From NCBI RefSeq assembly GCF_003722315.1, contig NZ_CP033580.1, positions 805,001-869,000 on the forward strand: DNA of 64,000 bases, in the 5' to 3' direction. Source of the DNA: Thermoanaerobacter ethanolicus JW 200 (GTDB lineage: Bacteria; Bacillota; Thermoanaerobacteria; Thermoanaerobacterales; Thermoanaerobacteraceae). A model generated the notes under the pieces. The model did not search any database. It was not told where the DNA came from and worked only from the letters and a program-made list of their open reading frames with translations. Both the position numbers and the translations under genes were made by a program. Below are positions 6,636 to 37,237 of the stretch, in pieces (the stretch's first letter is position 1; each line of letters begins with the position of its first letter).

Positions 6636-6654
6636 AATGTACAAATCTATTTGT

Positions 6655-6878
6655 AAATGCGATGAAGTGGAGTAGTAGGCATTGTAAGCTTTAAGAGAGC
6701 CGTTGGTGGGTGCAAAACGGTAGCCTAAGATGCCGAAACTCGCCATGGAGCAGGCATACTGAAGTGTAGTAGGTATGCACGGTTACTGCCGTTACAGGTT
6801 TAAGTGGGCATTATGCCAAAAAGAGTGGTACCACGGAAGTGTAAGTCTTTCGTCTCTTACGGATGAAAGACTTTTTTT
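6655..6878 (+). promoter_or_regulatory. Leucine T-box leader (tRNA-sensing attenuator) of leuS
   Basis: The leader carries the conserved T-box sequence AGAGTGGTACCACGG at 6822-6836, which pairs with the free 3' end of uncharged tRNA. It ends in an intrinsic terminator (arms AAGTCTTTCGTC near 6843 and GATGAAAGACTT near 6862-6873, followed by a T-run). In Stem I a CTC triplet at 6739-6741, in the context GAAACTCGCC, is a plausible specifier codon for leucine. Uncharged tRNA-Leu should favour the antiterminator and raise LeuRS synthesis. The specifier call is by eye. Confidence 0.88.
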
Positions 6879-28772: not shown

Positions 28773-31700
28773 ATGTTTAGGTCAAGGCCAAGGATACTTG
28801 CAATATTTGTTGCAGCAATAATGGTATTTAGCATGTTTTTCTCTGCGGTACCGCAGATAGCCTTTGCTGCAACGTCAAAAACATTTGACTTTATAGAAGT
28901 CACCGATTTTCACGGTTATTTACAAAATGACGGTAAATTAAGTGATGGAACAATTTATAAGCAGCAAATAGCAGGTGTTTTGGCAAAACAAATTAAAGAC
29001 ATAAAAGCTCAAAATCCTGACAGAACTGTAATTTTATCTGGCGGAGATATGTTCCAGGGAACGCCGCTTTCCAACGTCTTAAAAGGACAACCAGTCATTG
29101 AAATGATGAAAAATATTGGTTTTGATGCAATGACTCTTGGAAACCATGAATATGATTGGGGAATTGATTCGGTAATTGATACGCAAAATGCTACATTGAA
29201 AAATTCTACAATTCCTGTTCTTGCAGCAAATGTGTATGATAAAACAACGGGGCAATTGGTGAATTATGTAAAACCCTATGTAATGATTGAAAAAGATGGA
29301 GTAAAAATCGGCATAATTGGCATCGTAGACAATAAAGAATTTCCAAATATAATAATGCCTGCATATATACAAAATGTTGATTTTAAAGATCCTGTTCCAA
29401 TTGTAAATGACTTAGCACAGCAGTTAAGACAACAAGGTGCGCAAATAGTTGTTGTACTGGCACATATGGGCGCATATCAAGATAAGTCAGGTAATGTAAC
29501 AGGCAATCTTATAGACTTTGCAAAGCAAGTTCAAGGTGTAGATGCGATATTTGGTGGACATACACATTCAATTGTCACTACAAGAGTAAATGGAATTCCT
29601 GTAGGGGTTGCTTACTATTATGGCAGAGGATTCATCGATTTAAAGATAACATTAAATGATGATGGCACAGTTACAACAGGCGATATGCAATACATTGATA
29701 TTACAGGTTTGTATTCTACACAAAATCCTGTAGTGGATCCTGAAGTACAAGCCATTGTTGATAAAGCTGTTCAAGATGTAGGACCAATATTTAACGAAGT
29801 GATAGGTCAAGCTGCAATTGACTTGACAAGGACTCAAAGTGCGCAACCTTATGGAGACTCTCTCTTAGGCAATTGGGCAGCACAAGTGACAAAGGATGCA
29901 GTTGGAGCAGATTTTGGATTTGCCAATAATGGTGGGCTTAGGATAGATATTCCAAAAGGCGATATAACTGTTGGAATGATGTATCAGCTGATGCCTTTTG
30001 ACAACACAATAGTTACAATGAAAATGACAGGGGCGCAAGTAAAAACTATCCTTGAACAGGCTGTTCAAGATGGAGGAAAAGGCATACAAGTTGCAGGACT
30101 TTCCTTTAAATATGATCCAAGTAAACCCACCATGAATAGAGTATTTGACATGAGAAAGTCCGACGGAACGCCAATACTCATGGATAAAACTTATCTTGTT
30201 GCGACAAACAACTTTATGGGCACTGGCGGAGATGGCTTTACAGGATTTACAGACCCTGATATTGTAAAAACTTATGTTGACACATATAAGCTTGTAAGAG
30301 ATGCATTCATAGATGCAGTTAAAGCCCAAAAGACAGTTACTTCAAAAATAGATAATAGAATTGCACCGGCTAAAATGAGTGATGCGACAATAGCAGTACT
30401 TGCTACGTCAGATATACATGGCAATATATTCCCATGGGACTACAATACTGCAAAACCAGCAAATCAAGGTCTTGCAAAGGTATCTACTTATGTAAAACAG
30501 GTAAGAGCGCAATATCCTTATGTGGTATTAGTAGACAATGGAGACACAATACAAGGAACACCACTTTCTTACTATTATGACAAGATAGATACCACTACAG
30601 AGTATCCATTAGCAAAAGTAATGGGAGCAATGAAATACGATACCTGGACATTGGGCAACCATGAATACAATTATGGGCTTGACGTTTTGAATAGGGTTAT
30701 AAATGATATGAGAAATGAAGGCATACATGTGCTTTCAGCAAATACTTACAAAGATGACGGAACAAACTTTGTTGACCCTTACTATATTAAGACATTTGAT
30801 ACGCCACAAGGACCTGTAAAAGTGGGTATATTAGGCCTTACGACTAAAACTATACCATCATGGGAAGATAAAGACCACTATGCAGGATTACACTTCAATG
30901 ACCTTGTAGAGGAAGCAAATAAGTGGGTACCCAAGTTAAGAGAAGCAGGAGCAGATATAATAGTTGCTACAATTCATTCTGGTGAAGAGTCACCAACAGA
31001 TATAATACCAGAAAATCAAGTTATTGCTGTAGCAACGCAAGTAAATGGCATTGATGCAATAGTTGCAGGACATACACATGCTATTATATCACAGCATACG
31101 TATAAAAACCCAGCAGGCGAAACAGTGATAGTGACAGAACCTGGTAGATGGGGACAATATGTATCACAGATAAACTTTAATATAAGCAAAAATGCTGATG
31201 GAAAATGGGAAATAGATAGCAAATGGAGTGCAACTATAAAAATGGATGATTCTGTACAAGCAGATTCAGATATTTTAAACCTTGCACAACCATATCAAGA
31301 TGCAACACTTAAATATATAGGAACAAAAATCGGTGTTGCAACAGGTGACTTCTTAGGTACTGAACAGACAGTAAAAGAGACAGCTATAATGGACCTTATC
31401 AATAAAGTTCAAAAATATTATGCAAAAACTGATCTGTCAATTGCTGCACCACTTAGCAGCTCAGCGAAGATATTGAAAGGCGATATAACAATTCAAGACA
31501 TCATGGGTGTATATGTATATGAAAACTATTTGTATGGAATAAAGATGACTGGGAAACAGTTAAAGGACTGGATGGAATGGTCAGCAAGATATTACAAACA
31601 AGTTTCCTCGCCAAATGATCCTATAACAAAAGATCCTACTTTGAATATACCTGATTACAATCTTGACCAATTGTACGGTGCAAGCTATGTAATAGATTTA

Positions 31701-32537
31701 ACACAACCAGCAGGACATAGAATTAAGAATCTCAAAGTCAATGGCAAACTTGTAAAAGATGACGATGTATTCACAGTAGCAATAAACAACTATAGATTCA
31801 ATGGTGGTGGCGGATTCATGCAAGCTGCTGGAATAACAAATCCAGAAATTGTATTTGATTCTGCAAAAGCTTATGGCGATGACGGACAGGTAAGGAATTT
31901 GATGATTAGATATATTCAAGAGCATGGTACAATTACACCAACTGTTGAAAATTACTGGTATGTATCAACAACTCCTGTGGCAGAAGAAACACCATCACCA
32001 GTAACACAGCCAACACCTGCTCCAACTCCGCAACCACAACCTGCACCACAACCAACGCCTGCTCCAACTCCACAACCGACACCAGCACCACAACCAACGC
32101 CTGCTCCAACTCCGCAACCACAACCTGCACCACAACCTGTATACAACTATGGCATTGTAACTGCATCAGCGCTTAATGTGAGGGCAGGCGCAAGTACTTC
32201 AAGCAAAATTATAGGAGTACTTCCTGCCGGAAAAGTTGTGACATTGCTTGAAGAAGTCAACGGCTGGTACAAGATTGACTACAATGGCAAAACAGGATAC
32301 ATTTACGGCAAATACGTTGCTGCAACGCCAAATCCGTCAAAGGTAACTGTTTTGAAAGCTGTAAAAGTCACTGCTAAGAGCGGATTAAATGTAAGAGTAG
32401 GGAATTCTATAAATGCAAAGAAGATAGGAGCAGTACCATATGGTACAGAACTAAAAGTAGTTGGAGAATATAATGGATGGTATCAGATACAGTATAATGG
32501 CGGATTTGGATATGTATACGCAAAATATACAAAATAG
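28773..32537 (+). CDS. Secreted double 5'-nucleotidase / 2',3'-cyclic phosphodiesterase with two SH3b domains (YfkN-like)
   Basis: The 1254-residue protein has a signal peptide (about 1-34, ending AFA). Two tandem enzyme units follow. Unit 1 has DFHGYLQND, GGDMFQG, LGNHEYDWG and GGHTHS (about 38-265) plus a 5'-nucleotidase C-domain (to about 525). Unit 2 repeats this with TSDIHGN, DNGDTIQG, LGNHEYNYG and AGHTHA (about 540-780) and a second C-domain (to about 1050). A Pro/Gln/Thr-rich linker (about 1067-1122) leads to two SH3b cell-wall-binding domains, each with LNVR near its start. The double layout recalls B. subtilis YfkN. With the Pho box upstream, the role is release of phosphate from extracellular nucleotides. 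AAAGGAGG precedes the ATG. Confidence 0.94.
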   Translation: MFRSRPRILAIFVAAIMVFSMFFSAVPQIAFAATSKTFDFIEVTDFHGYLQNDGKLSDGTIYKQQIAGVLAKQIKDIKAQNPDRTVILSGGDMFQGTPLSNVLKGQPVIEMMKNIGFDAMTLGNHEYDWGIDSVIDTQNATLKNSTIPVLAANVYDKTTGQLVNYVKPYVMIEKDGVKIGIIGIVDNKEFPNIIMPAYIQNVDFKDPVPIVNDLAQQLRQQGAQIVVVLAHMGAYQDKSGNVTGNLIDFAKQVQGVDAIFGGHTHSIVTTRVNGIPVGVAYYYGRGFIDLKITLNDDGTVTTGDMQYIDITGLYSTQNPVVDPEVQAIVDKAVQDVGPIFNEVIGQAAIDLTRTQSAQPYGDSLLGNWAAQVTKDAVGADFGFANNGGLRIDIPKGDITVGMMYQLMPFDNTIVTMKMTGAQVKTILEQAVQDGGKGIQVAGLSFKYDPSKPTMNRVFDMRKSDGTPILMDKTYLVATNNFMGTGGDGFTGFTDPDIVKTYVDTYKLVRDAFIDAVKAQKTVTSKIDNRIAPAKMSDATIAVLATSDIHGNIFPWDYNTAKPANQGLAKVSTYVKQVRAQYPYVVLVDNGDTIQGTPLSYYYDKIDTTTEYPLAKVMGAMKYDTWTLGNHEYNYGLDVLNRVINDMRNEGIHVLSANTYKDDGTNFVDPYYIKTFDTPQGPVKVGILGLTTKTIPSWEDKDHYAGLHFNDLVEEANKWVPKLREAGADIIVATIHSGEESPTDIIPENQVIAVATQVNGIDAIVAGHTHAIISQHTYKNPAGETVIVTEPGRWGQYVSQINFNISKNADGKWEIDSKWSATIKMDDSVQADSDILNLAQPYQDATLKYIGTKIGVATGDFLGTEQTVKETAIMDLINKVQKYYAKTDLSIAAPLSSSAKILKGDITIQDIMGVYVYENYLYGIKMTGKQLKDWMEWSARYYKQVSSPNDPITKDPTLNIPDYNLDQLYGASYVIDLTQPAGHRIKNLKVNGKLVKDDDVFTVAINNYRFNGGGGFMQAAGITNPEIVFDSAKAYGDDGQVRNLMIRYIQEHGTITPTVENYWYVSTTPVAEETPSPVTQPTPAPTPQPQPAPQPTPAPTPQPTPAPQPTPAPTPQPQPAPQPVYNYGIVTASALNVRAGASTSSKIIGVLPAGKVVTLLEEVNGWYKIDYNGKTGYIYGKYVAATPNPSKVTVLKAVKVTAKSGLNVRVGNSINAKKIGAVPYGTELKVVGEYNGWYQIQYNGGFGYVYAKYTK
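32010..32136 (+). repeat. Three 42-bp tandem repeats coding for the Pro-rich linker
   Basis: The sequence CAAC(A/G)CCTGCTCCAACTCC starts at 32011, 32053 and 32095. The 42-base period encodes the 14-residue unit PTPAPTPQPQPAPQ with small variations. It is a coding linker repeat, open to slippage in length. Confidence 0.85.
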
Positions 32538-32553
32538 GAGCTAAAGAAGAGAA

Positions 32554-32575
32554 AAGCTGTGGGAAACCGCAGCTT
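32554..32575 (+). repeat. Left 22-bp target duplication of the IS1182-like element (copy of a terminator hairpin)
   Basis: The 22 bases AAGCTGTGG-GAAA-CCGCAGCTT form a hairpin with a GAAA loop and are identical, in the same orientation, to 34142-34163. The non-palindromic loop shows that it is a direct repeat and not part of the element's inverted ends. Confidence 0.88.
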
Positions 32576-34141
32576 CAGACTGTTGACAAAATATCGGGAA
32601 CCCGTTATGATGAGAAGGGTTCCTTGTTATTTTAGTGGTATAAAGCAAAAGAGGAGAGGAGAAGGAAGATGTTAACAAAGAAACAGGATGCAAGACATCA
32701 AATAGAATTTGTAAGCATAGATCAATTAGTACCAAAAGACCACCTTTTAAGAAAGATAGAAAAAGTCATAGACTTTAGCTTCATATACGATTTAGTAAAG
32801 GACAAATATTCCGAAGATCACGGCAGACCAAGTATAGATCCAGTAGTATTGATAAAAATACTGTTCATTCAATATCTTTTTGGTATACCGTCGATAAGAA
32901 GAACAATAGCAGAAATAAAAACAAACGTTGCATATAGATGGTTTTTAGGGTATGGACTAACAGAAGAAATACCTCATTTTTCAACATTTAGCCAGAACTA
33001 CATAAGAAGATTCAAAGGGACAGACATATTTGAGAAAATATTTACGAAGATTTTAGAAGAAGCAATAAGGCATGGGTTAGTAAATGCAGAGGAAGTATTC
33101 ATAGATTCCACTCACGTAAAAGCAAGTGCCAATAAGAAAAAATATACAAAAGAAATAATAGAACAAGAAGCCAAGACTTACCAAGAAAAACTAGAAGAAG
33201 AAATAAACAAAGATAGAGAAGCTCATGGAAAAAAGCCATTAAAGAAAATCAAGACGATAAAGACGAAAGAAGTAAAAGTAAGCAAAACAGACCCAGATAG
33301 TGGAATGTTAAACAAAAATGAAAAAGAAAAATGTTTTGCATATTCCTTTCACACAGCCTGCGATAAAAACGGATTTGTATTAGGAGTAAAAGTTGAAGCA
33401 GCGAATGTACACGACAGCGTAATGTTTGAAGAAGTACTAAAAGAAGTTGAAAATAGGGTAGGAAAACCGAAAGCAATAGCAGTAGATGCAGGATACAAAA
33501 ATCCGTACATATTAAAGACAATATTTGATAGAGAAATAATACCAGCAGTGCCATACACAAGACCAAAAACAAAAGACGGTTTTATGAAGAAACATGAGTT
33601 TGTGTATGATGAATATTATGACTGTTACATATGCCCGCAGAATGAAATACTAACATATGTTACAACCAATAGAGAAGGATATAGAGAATACAAATCAAAC
33701 CCAGAAAAATGTAAAAACTGTCCTTTAAGAGAAAAGTGTACCCAAAGTAAAGACTACACAAAGAGGATATTCAGGCACATATGGGAAGGATATGTAGAAG
33801 AAGCAGAACACCTAAGGCATACACCTTACTGTAAAGAAGTATATGAGAGAAGGAAAGAGACAATAGAGAGAGTGTTTGCAGATTTAAAGGAGAAGCATGG
33901 TTTGCGATGGACAACATTAAGAGGGAAAGAAAAATTGTCCATGCAAGCGATGCTTGTTTTTGCTGCCATGAATTTAAAGAAAATGGCCTTATGGTTATGG
34001 AGGAAGGGCAAAGGGCCCTTTGACATTTCAAAACTTTATCCATTATTTGGAGTTTTAAAGAAAATTTTATCCAGATATATACAGCCCCTGTTTTCGGTAC
34101 TAAGAAAACAGGGGCTAAAATTTTACTTTGTCAACAAACTG
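32576..34141 (+). mobile_element. Complete IS1182-family insertion sequence, 1566 bp, inserted in a terminator
   Basis: The left end CAGACTGTTGACAAA (32576-32590) and the right end, read inward as CAGTTTGTTGACAAA (34141-34127), match at 13 of 15 bases. A 22-bp hairpin is duplicated outside both ends. Removing the element and one copy restores a perfect 16-bp terminator stem (AAGAGAAAAGCTGTGG and its partner, one G-U) plus T-rich tail for the nucleotidase gene. The element carries one intact transposase gene, a hairpin inside its left end (GGAACCC 32597-32603 with GGGTTCC 32617-32623) and a 13-bp hairpin near its right end (34083-34116). Confidence 0.92.
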
Positions 34142-34204
34142 AAGCTGTGGGAAACCGCAGCTTTTCTCTTTTGCAAAAACTGTTGGAGAGAAGAAAATAT
34201 GTGA
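32669..34204 (+). CDS. IS1182-family transposase, reading out of the element into host DNA
   Basis: The 511-residue DDE transposase begins MLTKKQDARHQIEFVSIDQLVPKDHLLRKIEKV, the usual IS1182/IS5-like start. It has VFIDSTHVKASANKK (first Asp), KAIAVDAGYKNPYI (second Asp), a cysteine cluster (CYICPQNE, CKNCPLREKC), and the Glu region ERRKETIERVFADLKEKHGLRWTTLRG. AGGAGAAGGAAG precedes the ATG. The element has no in-frame stop before its right end at 34141, so the last 20 codons (from the second Lys-Leu of VNKLKLW) are supplied by the duplicated host hairpin and beyond. The core is complete, so the enzyme may be active. Confidence 0.92.
   Translation: MLTKKQDARHQIEFVSIDQLVPKDHLLRKIEKVIDFSFIYDLVKDKYSEDHGRPSIDPVVLIKILFIQYLFGIPSIRRTIAEIKTNVAYRWFLGYGLTEEIPHFSTFSQNYIRRFKGTDIFEKIFTKILEEAIRHGLVNAEEVFIDSTHVKASANKKKYTKEIIEQEAKTYQEKLEEEINKDREAHGKKPLKKIKTIKTKEVKVSKTDPDSGMLNKNEKEKCFAYSFHTACDKNGFVLGVKVEAANVHDSVMFEEVLKEVENRVGKPKAIAVDAGYKNPYILKTIFDREIIPAVPYTRPKTKDGFMKKHEFVYDEYYDCYICPQNEILTYVTTNREGYREYKSNPEKCKNCPLREKCTQSKDYTKRIFRHIWEGYVEEAEHLRHTPYCKEVYERRKETIERVFADLKEKHGLRWTTLRGKEKLSMQAMLVFAAMNLKKMALWLWRKGKGPFDISKLYPLFGVLKKILSRYIQPLFSVLRKQGLKFYFVNKLKLWETAAFLFCKNCWREENM
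34083..34116 (+). other. 13-bp perfect hairpin near the right end of the IS1182-like element
   Basis: AGCCCCTGTTTTC (34083-34095) and GAAAACAGGGGCT (34104-34116) with an 8-base loop, inside the transposase coding sequence. It may weaken readthrough transcription or aid transposase recognition. Confidence 0.7.
34142..34170 (+). terminator. Right copy of the duplicated terminator hairpin
   Basis: 34142-34163 repeats 32554-32575 and is followed by TTCTCTTTT, the original T-rich tail. It originally terminated the nucleotidase gene and now lies behind the transposase gene. Confidence 0.8.
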
Positions 34205-34210: not shown

Positions 34211-34265
34211 ATATAGGTAAGTGGATTATATACAGGAGATTTACAGCGAAAGGGATGAAATAAGT

Positions 34266-35231
34266 TTGAAAATAGGCGATGTAGTTTTAAAAAATAACGT
34301 ATTTTTATCTCCTATGGCAGGGGTTACAGATAAGCCTTTTAGAGTGATTTGCCAAGAAATGGGTTGTGGCCTTGCATACACAGAAATGGTTAGTGCCAAA
34401 GGCCTTTATTATGGCAGTGAAAATACAAAAGTGTTGACAGATATTGATGAGGAAGAGAAGGTGGCTCTTCAAATATTTGGTTCTGATCCAGATATTATGG
34501 GGGAGATAGCAAGAAGGCTAAATGATAGCAAAGCTTTAATTCTCGATATAAACATGGGATGTCCTACCCCTAAAATAGTTAAAAATGGTGATGGAGCGGC
34601 ACTTATGCTGAAACCAGAATTAGCAGAAAAAGTAATGGAATCTGTTGTGAAAGCATCAAATAAACCTGTGACAGTTAAAATAAGAAAAGGGTGGGATGAT
34701 AATCATGTAAATGCAGTAGAGATAGCACAAATTGCTGAAAAGGTTGGCGTTAAAGCAGTAGCAGTACATGGAAGGACGAGAGAACAATTTTATTCTGGAA
34801 AAGCTGACTGGAGTATAATAAAAAAAGTCAAAGAAAGTGTAAAAATACCTGTTATAGGTAATGGCGATATATTTACACCAGAAGATGCAAAAAGAATGTT
34901 GGAGGAAACGGGATGCGATGCAATTTTAATAGGACGAGGGGCGCAGGGTAATCCCTGGATATTTAAAAGAACTGTACATTTTTTAAATACCGGAGAATTA
35001 CTTCCCGAGCCGACAATACAAGAAAAAATAGAAGTGATTATCAGGCATTTGGAAATGATGATAGAATACAAAGGTGAACGTACAGGTATTCTTGAAATGA
35101 GAAAACATATTGCTTGGTATTTAAAGGGATTATATGGCAGCGCTAAACTCAGGGAAGCAGTATTTAAAATGGAAAAATATGAGCAAATAAAAGAGTTTTT
35201 ATTAAATATAGCAAAGACCTATGCAGATTGA
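34266..35231 (+). CDS. dusB: tRNA-dihydrouridine synthase, DusB family
   Basis: The 321-residue FMN enzyme reduces uridines in the tRNA D-loop. It has the N-terminal FMN-site block FLSPMAGVTDKPFRVI, the NMGCPTPKIVKNGDGAALM block with the catalytic Cys (near residue 100), and VTVKIRKGWDD, AVHGRTREQFYSG, VIGNGDIFTPEDA and GRGAQGNPWIF. The frame opens at GTG 34221, but the TTG at 34266, behind AAAGGGATGA, gives the usual family start (M)KIGDVVLKNNVFLSPMAG and fits the promoter position better. Length then agrees with DusB (about 320). Confidence 0.92.
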   Translation: MKIGDVVLKNNVFLSPMAGVTDKPFRVICQEMGCGLAYTEMVSAKGLYYGSENTKVLTDIDEEEKVALQIFGSDPDIMGEIARRLNDSKALILDINMGCPTPKIVKNGDGAALMLKPELAEKVMESVVKASNKPVTVKIRKGWDDNHVNAVEIAQIAEKVGVKAVAVHGRTREQFYSGKADWSIIKKVKESVKIPVIGNGDIFTPEDAKRMLEETGCDAILIGRGAQGNPWIFKRTVHFLNTGELLPEPTIQEKIEVIIRHLEMMIEYKGERTGILEMRKHIAWYLKGLYGSAKLREAVFKMEKYEQIKEFLLNIAKTYAD

Positions 35232-35273: not shown

Positions 35274-35357
35274 TTAAGTGCATTTTAAGTATCTAAGTAT
35301 GCCTAAGGCTTGCTTTGAGCAGAGGGGACACACTAAGATACTTCGAAATGCACTTTG
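35274..35357 (+). other. Long imperfect palindrome, possible structured RNA or small mobile relic
   Basis: The arm AAGTGCATTTTAAGTATCT near 35276 pairs with AGATACTTCGAAATGCACTT ending near 35356, with one bulge and few mismatches over about 24 bp. The middle holds two small hairpins (GCCTAAGGC and GCTTTGAGC). No T-run follows directly. No known RNA family is recognised. Confidence 0.5.
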
Positions 35358-35400
35358 CGCAAAAAAGAGGAAGCTTATTAAAAAACTTGTCTACAGCCTG

Positions 35401-35430
35401 AGTCCTGCAGCGATTTTAGCAGGACTTTTA
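35401..35430 (+). terminator. Terminator-like hairpin abutting an IS1182-like end
   Basis: AGTCCTGC (35401-35408) and GCAGGACT (35419-35426) plus TTTT. The sequence directly before it, ACTTGTCTACAGCCTG (35385-35400), resembles the right end of the IS1182-like element of this window. The hairpin presumably terminated dusB or a nearby transcript. Confidence 0.7.
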
Positions 35431-36335: not shown

Positions 36336-37076
36336 GAGGAAAATAGAACAAAAAAATATAAAGGAATTGACATTATAGAATTCTATCAAAAAGAGGCAAT
36401 TAAAAGGAAAAACACAATACCCAAAAAAACTTTTTATAATAGATTTTTGAAAATTGGAGACCACATAATGATATCAAAACCCTATGAGGAAAAGTTTGAA
36501 GAGAAAAGATATAAAATCAGCCTTTATGAACTGTTAAAAAACGTATATTATGAAGAAGTATTTGGGATAAACATTTCTTCCAAAAGAAAAAAAGAAGTCT
36601 ATCGCAACAATATCTCTTTTGAAAATTTTACTATAGGCGATATTGTTTTAGCCACAAGCCCGGGATTTCACATACAAGGTGCTATTAGACATGCTGCTAT
36701 ATTCGATAGCAGAAGATATCATGGGAGCGTTGATGATGAATGCTTACTCACTGCAGAACCAAATAAAGGAGTAATATACGAGTCTATTCGATTTTATCAT
36801 GAAAACTTTGGAGAAGCATGGGGACTTTATGTGCCCAATACCACTTTACAACAAAGAATTGCAGTTGTCGATGAAATAGCAAAACATATAGGAGAGAGAT
36901 ATTATTGGAGTGCTCATAAAAGCAACTCAAAAGTTTGGTATTGTTCATTGGCTCCTTGGAGAGGATATTATAAAATTACAGGTATTGATATTGACTATAA
37001 TGACGGATATTGGGTTTTACCTATTGACATTTTTATGAGTGAATATACTGAAGTTTTTGAGTATTCAAGGGGATAG
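36306..37076 (+). CDS. Permuted papain-fold (YiiX/C92-like) cysteine peptidase-like protein
   Basis: A 256-residue soluble protein without a signal peptide. The likely catalytic pair is a His in GAIRHAAIFDS (near residue 128) and, later, a Cys in KVWYCSLAPWRGY (near residue 217). This His-before-Cys order is that of circularly permuted NlpC/P60 (YiiX/DUF830-type) proteins, where GDIVLAT precedes the His as it does here (FTIGDIVLATSPG). The N-terminal 100 residues are not recognised. Two starts are possible, ATG 36306 and ATG 36330, both inside a hairpin and without a clear ribosome site. The substrate could be a peptide, an amide or a lipid ester; activity is inferred. Confidence 0.72.
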   Translation: MYHGDDAYMWEENRTKKYKGIDIIEFYQKEAIKRKNTIPKKTFYNRFLKIGDHIMISKPYEEKFEEKRYKISLYELLKNVYYEEVFGINISSKRKKEVYRNNISFENFTIGDIVLATSPGFHIQGAIRHAAIFDSRRYHGSVDDECLLTAEPNKGVIYESIRFYHENFGEAWGLYVPNTTLQQRIAVVDEIAKHIGERYYWSAHKSNSKVWYCSLAPWRGYYKITGIDIDYNDGYWVLPIDIFMSEYTEVFEYSRG

Positions 37077-37107
37077 TATGTACTATCCCTCAGTTTGTTG
37101 ACAAAGT
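37068..37107 (+). other. Terminator hairpin abutting an IS1182-like left end (relic)
   Basis: GGGATAGT and ACTATCCC form a hairpin across 37071-37089 that includes the stop of the preceding gene. Instead of a T-run it is followed at once by CAGTTTGTTGACAAAGT (37091-37107), identical over these 17 bases to the right end (read inward) of the intact IS1182-like element. The rest of the element is missing. Further on, 37108-37237 shows only a second weak end-like sequence, CAGGCTGTTG at about 37183. Confidence 0.72.
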
Positions 37108-37237
37108 TAAAAAATTTTCAAAGGAGATATTTTGCATCGTCGCTCCGATGTTCCAAAGCGACAAAACTAAAGCTCGACCTTCAGGCTGTTGTAAGATGTC
37201 TGATAATTTGAAAACAAAAAGAAAATCAAAAGTCATA

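Follow-up and report, generated by a model that had tools for sequence, protein, structure and literature searches.

How does an insertion sequence come to lie between two copies of the same hairpin, and does that hairpin belong to the element or to the site that it entered? The question is raised by an IS1182-family element in the window (the whole 64,000-nucleotide stretch of DNA analysed), where AAGCTGTGGGAAACCGCAGCTT at positions 32554-32575 is repeated in direct orientation at 34142-34163. A first-pass annotation had noticed this 22-bp hairpin on both sides of the element, which the sequence confirms, and had proposed that removal of the element together with one copy restores a rho-independent terminator. 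This proposal also holds. The flanks joined through a single copy read AAGAGAAAAGCTGTGG-GAAA-CCGCAGCTTTTCTCTT, with a 16-pair stem (including one G-U pair), a GAAA loop and a T-rich tail, and the rejoined hairpin has a predicted fold of -26 kcal/mol (z -7.1), to which none of 200 shuffles was equal. The features of the locus are as follows.

28773..32537, + strand: upstream gene, a 5'-nucleotidase with SH3 domains, owner of the targeted terminator
32547..32553, + strand: outer left stem arm (AAGAGAA) of the original terminator, unduplicated (sequence; empty-site orthologues)
32554..32575, + strand: left copy of the 22-bp target duplication, a hairpin without T-tract (direct repeat D1; fold)
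32576..34141, + strand: IS1182-family insertion sequence of 1,566 bp, present six times in identical form genome-wide (genome search; boundaries from six copies with different flanks)
32576..32590, + strand: left terminal inverted repeat CAGACTGTTGACAAA, containing the -35 box TTGACA (32583) of the transposase promoter, whose -10 box TATGAT ends at 32611
32597..32623, + strand: hairpin GGAACCC/GGGTTCC with a T-rich run after it, immediately inside the left end (read from the sequence)
32669..34204, + strand: transposase gene, 511 amino acids (Pfam, NCBIfam, invariant columns, frame analysis)
34127..34141, - strand: right terminal inverted repeat CAGTTTGTTGACAAA
34142..34163, + strand: right copy of the 22-bp target duplication, with the T-rich tail retained (direct repeat; fold; terminator scan)
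34164..34173, + strand: outer right stem arm (TTCTCTT) of the original terminator, with its T-rich tail (sequence; empty sites)

The original hairpin spans 36 nucleotides, and its inner 22 nucleotides (nine pairs and the loop) form the duplicated part. The outer seven stem pairs were divided by the element, with AAGAGAA now in the left flank (32547-32553) and TTCTCTT in the right flank (34164-34170). Thus, the earlier suggestion of a whole-hairpin duplication is correct in that a hairpin was copied to both flanks, but at this site only the inner portion was copied, and the 22-bp duplication is shorter than the hairpin to which its length had been equated. The same site was located in six other members of the genus, as the first-pass annotation had recommended for related Thermoanaerobacter genomes, and in each of these the element is absent and one copy of the same hairpin is present.

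The stop codon of the 5'-nucleotidase gene ends 9 bp ahead of the stem, and the downstream neighbour of the insertion site is a dihydrouridine synthase gene (34221-35231). The T-tract was kept by the right hairpin copy only, and a terminator scan calls this copy alone terminator-like, so that a hairpin does stand on each flank as had been expected, but not a terminator on each. Because the upstream copy has a 9-pair stem without T-tract, the 5'-nucleotidase gene has probably lost its full terminator through the insertion. The hairpin and T-rich run at 32597-32623, where the scan called no terminator, is possibly a terminator that blocks transcription entering from outside, and it may partly substitute for the one lost upstream.

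Elements of the IS1182 family are about 1.3-1.95 kb long and carry terminal inverted repeats, and the window element agrees with this description in its length (1,566 bp) and its ends (CAGACTGTTGACAAA and CAGTTTGTTGACAAA). The transposase carries the Pfam domains DUF772 and DDE_Tnp_1 / DDE_Tnp_1_6 and scores 489.6 bits against the NCBIfam model for IS1182 (NF033551, curated cut-off 270), which places it in this family; the best NCBIfam model for IS5 gives 119.6 bits, below its cut-off of 140. The catalytic residues D146, D273 and E400 are invariant among eight members that are 26-63% identical to the window transposase, as are cysteines 322, 348, 351 and 357. The stop codon of the gene (34202-34204) lies outside the element, past the right hairpin copy. 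In some relatives (L078, L080, L096, L121, L153) the first duplicated base completes the stop codon (CTG|A gives TGA), in keeping with the preference for A described below for the cut. A non-stop transposase mRNA, in which transcription would meet the terminator ahead of any stop codon, was considered as a general regulatory device and rejected: several copies in this genome have the arrangement, and elsewhere the stop lies in the hairpin, at the first duplicated base, or inside the element.

Sequence searches of the 2.91-Mb genome found six identical copies of the element, two full copies at 92% identity, and fragments. All eight full copies are flanked by a perfect direct duplication, each of a different palindrome, with lengths of 27, 27, 32, 22, 20, 22, 20 and 20 bp; the expectation that other copies would also sit in hairpins was therefore realized, and the arrangement at the window site is no coincidence. 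For six of the eight sites an element-free hairpin is found in genus-mates (clear for five, approximate for L007). That hairpins flank every full copy in the genome might suggest that they are the element's own long inverted ends. We consider this explanation refuted, since each of the six identical copies has a different hairpin and the empty sites already carry theirs. The presence of element-free hairpins in genus-mates, and of a different palindrome at each copy, therefore identifies the hairpin as the target rather than a part of the element.

A further search of this genome with the end sequence CAGNNTGTTGACAAA recovered 44 ends, and its reversed control recovered none. A hairpin adjoins nearly every distinct end that was read, whereas only about 2% of random positions have a hairpin of that score. 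The ends that do not belong to full copies come mainly from elements of 263-333 bp without a transposase gene. Seventeen of these short relatives are complete at both ends, with a hairpin duplication of 17-40 bp. Their other end is CAGACTGTAGACAAAC, slightly different from those of the window element, so that a sister transposase may mobilise them.

For a broader survey of the family, searches with the transposase covered the class as well as 399 sampled genomes of the phylum, and matching regions were retrieved. This yielded 69 boundary-resolved copies, 64 of which carry duplications of 14 bp or more. The copies are a non-random sample of the family, and those from the same genome were counted as separate insertions because their flanks differ. 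The 64 insertions come from many genera, mostly of Bacillota, and from several elements with different end sequences. Their duplications are 16-35 bp long (median 23), and when the short relatives are included the range is 16-40 bp, so that the length is not fixed at 22 bp. In 58 of the 64 cases the centre of the duplication coincides with the centre of the hairpin (axis offset 0), and symmetric pairing of at least 70% is found in 58 of the 64 duplications versus 0.2% of 200,000 random intervals. The stem within the duplication averages 10.3 pairs (sd 2.2); it runs 1-7 pairs past the duplication at 40 of the 64 sites, with the cuts opposite one another in the stem. Further clear cases beyond these 64 occur in Acetoanaerobium noterae (24 bp) and Paenibacillus (about 18 bp) and, outside Bacillota, on a plasmid of Providencia rettgeri (28 bp). 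The duplicating mode is scattered over the whole of the well-aligned transposase tree, in which the outer groups are distant, with long branches and a root that is not firm.

Judged from these sequence comparisons, the target is a pre-existing hairpin. The duplication takes in all of this hairpin or just its inner part, has its centre on the dyad axis, and differs in length between sites. Most insertions lie beside T-tracts at gene ends, as would be seen if elements inserted at random and survived only in harmless terminators. Such selection cannot align the edges of the duplication with the hairpin and centre them on its axis in 58 of 64 cases, and we regard it as refuted.

What the transposase recognizes is a separate matter. 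We think it likely that this IS1182-family DDE transposase selects DNA palindromes, mostly rho-independent terminators, and duplicates the hairpin on both sides of the element by way of an extruded cruciform. The spacing at which a DDE transpososome attaches its two ends to opposite strands is fixed, and the length of the target duplication is therefore normally a constant signature of the enzyme. In the IS1182 elements studied here, the length is governed by the hairpin and not by the enzyme, so that the element probably recognizes folded, cross-shaped DNA. In the proposed pathway, supercoiling would extrude the palindrome as a cruciform, strand transfer would occur at the 5' feet of the extruded structure, and gap repair would then copy both hairpins. 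The two attacked phosphates would be close together at the junction whatever the length of the arms, which would explain how a transpososome of fixed geometry produces duplications of 16-40 bp. Branch migration of the junction would likewise explain cuts within the stem, including those at the window site. The targeting and the duplication themselves come from the comparison, and the cruciform is the form of the target that we infer.

A T run follows or precedes most of the hairpins, and terminators thus account for most sites, as the first-pass annotation had supposed. None is present at 10 of the 64 sites (about one in six), and the DNA palindrome is the better description of the target. The orientation of the element relative to the T-tract is even, with 19 in the same and 15 in the opposite direction. 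Both results are expected of a symmetric DNA target. They count against a hairpin on one single strand, such as the lagging-strand template or a transcription bubble at a terminator, even though such hairpins form readily and terminators are the most common sites. That pathway also predicts loss of the hairpin, as reported for IS1272 (PMC4923244, PMC5678879), rather than a duplication cut on both strands, and we judge it improbable.

Some sequence preference is also evident. At 109 of 128 transfer sites the duplication begins with A, and both transfer sites show an A/G-rich preference. The preference for A counts against purely structural targeting and indicates that sequence matters too, although A-tracts flank terminators anyway. 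The narrow distribution of stem lengths within the duplication could likewise reflect an enzyme that measures distance on linear DNA. These observations, together with the symmetry of the cuts, are what would be expected if a transposase dimer bound palindrome half-sites of linear duplex DNA and made cuts staggered by 16-40 bp through flexible spacing, with no cruciform. However, no clear common sequence unites the half-sites past the A-tract edge, and the range of spacings exceeds two helical turns, which is hard to reconcile with a synaptic complex of fixed geometry on linear DNA. This arrangement therefore seems unlikely, if somewhat less so than the single-strand target, and we favour the cruciform.

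A few copies depart from the common pattern. L036 (in G002), whose duplication is 6 bp long, non-palindromic and close to the 3' end of a coding frame, is an insertion of just the kind that had been named beforehand as evidence against hairpin targeting, and palindromic structure is therefore not strictly required. In five copies (L124, L126, L182, L208, L209) the left and right hairpins differ, likely as a result of recombination between copies, and in L120 a hairpin is present at one side only. Short duplications are also found in a Variovorax element and in two other members of the family at 28-37% identity, ISCfr1 and the more distant G409 group. Those of G409 measure 4 bp, and those of ISCfr1 either 4 or 6 bp according to the placement of its end, in contrast to the whole-hairpin duplications described above. 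The G409 copies nevertheless lie at palindrome centres, with flanks that are palindromic around the 4-bp duplication, and thus resemble the loop-attack pathway drawn as (c) in PMC5678879.

Palindrome targeting in the IS1182 family was known in outline before. IS1272 and TnSha1 of staphylococci, which share with the window element a transposase of the same DDE family and the use of stem-loop targets, insert at stem-loops that are often terminators and have no sequence consensus (PMC4923244, PMC5678879). In contrast to the window element, which has a hairpin in direct orientation on both flanks, IS1272 replaces or deletes the stem-loop without target duplication, a loss found by Furi et al. in 2016 (PMC4923244); the window insertion is thus not a replacement of the IS1272 type. 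It was proposed in 2017 that IS1272 joins at the 3' feet and thereby loses the hairpin, whereas duplication of a whole stem-loop by attack at the 5' feet was drawn only as a possibility (PMC5678879, Fig. 13, pathway b). The statement that IS1182 elements target palindromes is credited to Siguier et al. (2015) in PMC4923244 and PMC5678879, and the citing text describes it as lacking detailed data. The insertions analysed here also lie in palindromes and so agree with those members in family and target; the variable, axis-centred duplication is quantified here. By annotation, the closest named element in a plasmid search was ISEfa7 of Enterococcus faecium, whose transposase is about 54% identical; no matching duplication was found between the two ends of the one copy examined. 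We found no report of whole-hairpin duplication in the open literature searched. The ISfinder database lists long, variable direct repeats for the IS1182 family, and part of the variable-duplication finding may already be on record there.

A broader generalization has, in our view, an even chance of being right: that the main IS1182 clade consists of structure-directed DDE transposases acting at cruciform four-way junctions, that duplication length is a property of the target, and that the only difference in IS1272 is attack at the opposite (3') feet, much like the two resolutions of a Holliday junction. With a duplication length set by the target, IS1182 elements would serve as natural probes of cruciform DNA in vivo, and would offer a simple test of how one transpososome geometry gives very different duplications. 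Duplicated hairpins also provide a practical route to exact element ends. Hairpin targeting explains how such elements accumulate with little damage to genes, as in a 2.3-Mb genome of the same phylum (G073) that has 36 IS1182 transposase matches, nearly all of those examined being at duplicated hairpins. The finding also bears on the megatransposon TnCO-1 of Thermoanaerobacter kivui, from the same genus, in which an element of the same family is reported as mobilised; hairpin duplication does not figure in the part of that description drawn on here, whose authors noted in 2025 how scarce information on IS1182 elements is (PMC12056078).

Other observations concern sequences associated with these hairpins. 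In a Caldanaerobacter locus (L090, 2644-2929), a hairpin, a short element of about 250 bp, the same hairpin and a full element occur in a chain, apparently because a later insertion entered the hairpin copy created by an earlier one. Group IIC introns, which are retroelements, also use terminator hairpins; they insert next to the hairpin and cause no duplication. In T. wiegelii Rt8.B1 (NC_015958.1; L069), each of the four full copies carries an insertion that resembles a group II intron and was measured in one copy at about 0.65 kb. It lies inside one inverted repeat, a few bases past the duplicated hairpin, at the left end in two copies and at the right end in two. In that strain, the element seems to provide places where a hairpin-dependent intron can land. 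In the right flank of L001, a multi-copy group II intron-like sequence begins just past the duplicated hairpin, and its start recurs many times in the genome and its relatives.

The window itself contains additional traces. A truncated short relative occupies 37070-37196, with the hairpin GGGATAGTATGTACTATCCC at 37070-37089 followed by the end CAGTTTGTTGACAAAG at 37091; its other end was not found. At 35320-35430 lies what is probably the right end of another IS1182-like remnant, distinct from the window element (CAGGCTGTAGACAAG, minus strand, 35386-35400), after which come the hairpin AGTCCTGC...GCAGGACT and a T-tract. Apart from these, a T-box leader is present at 6653-6860 (145.6 bits).
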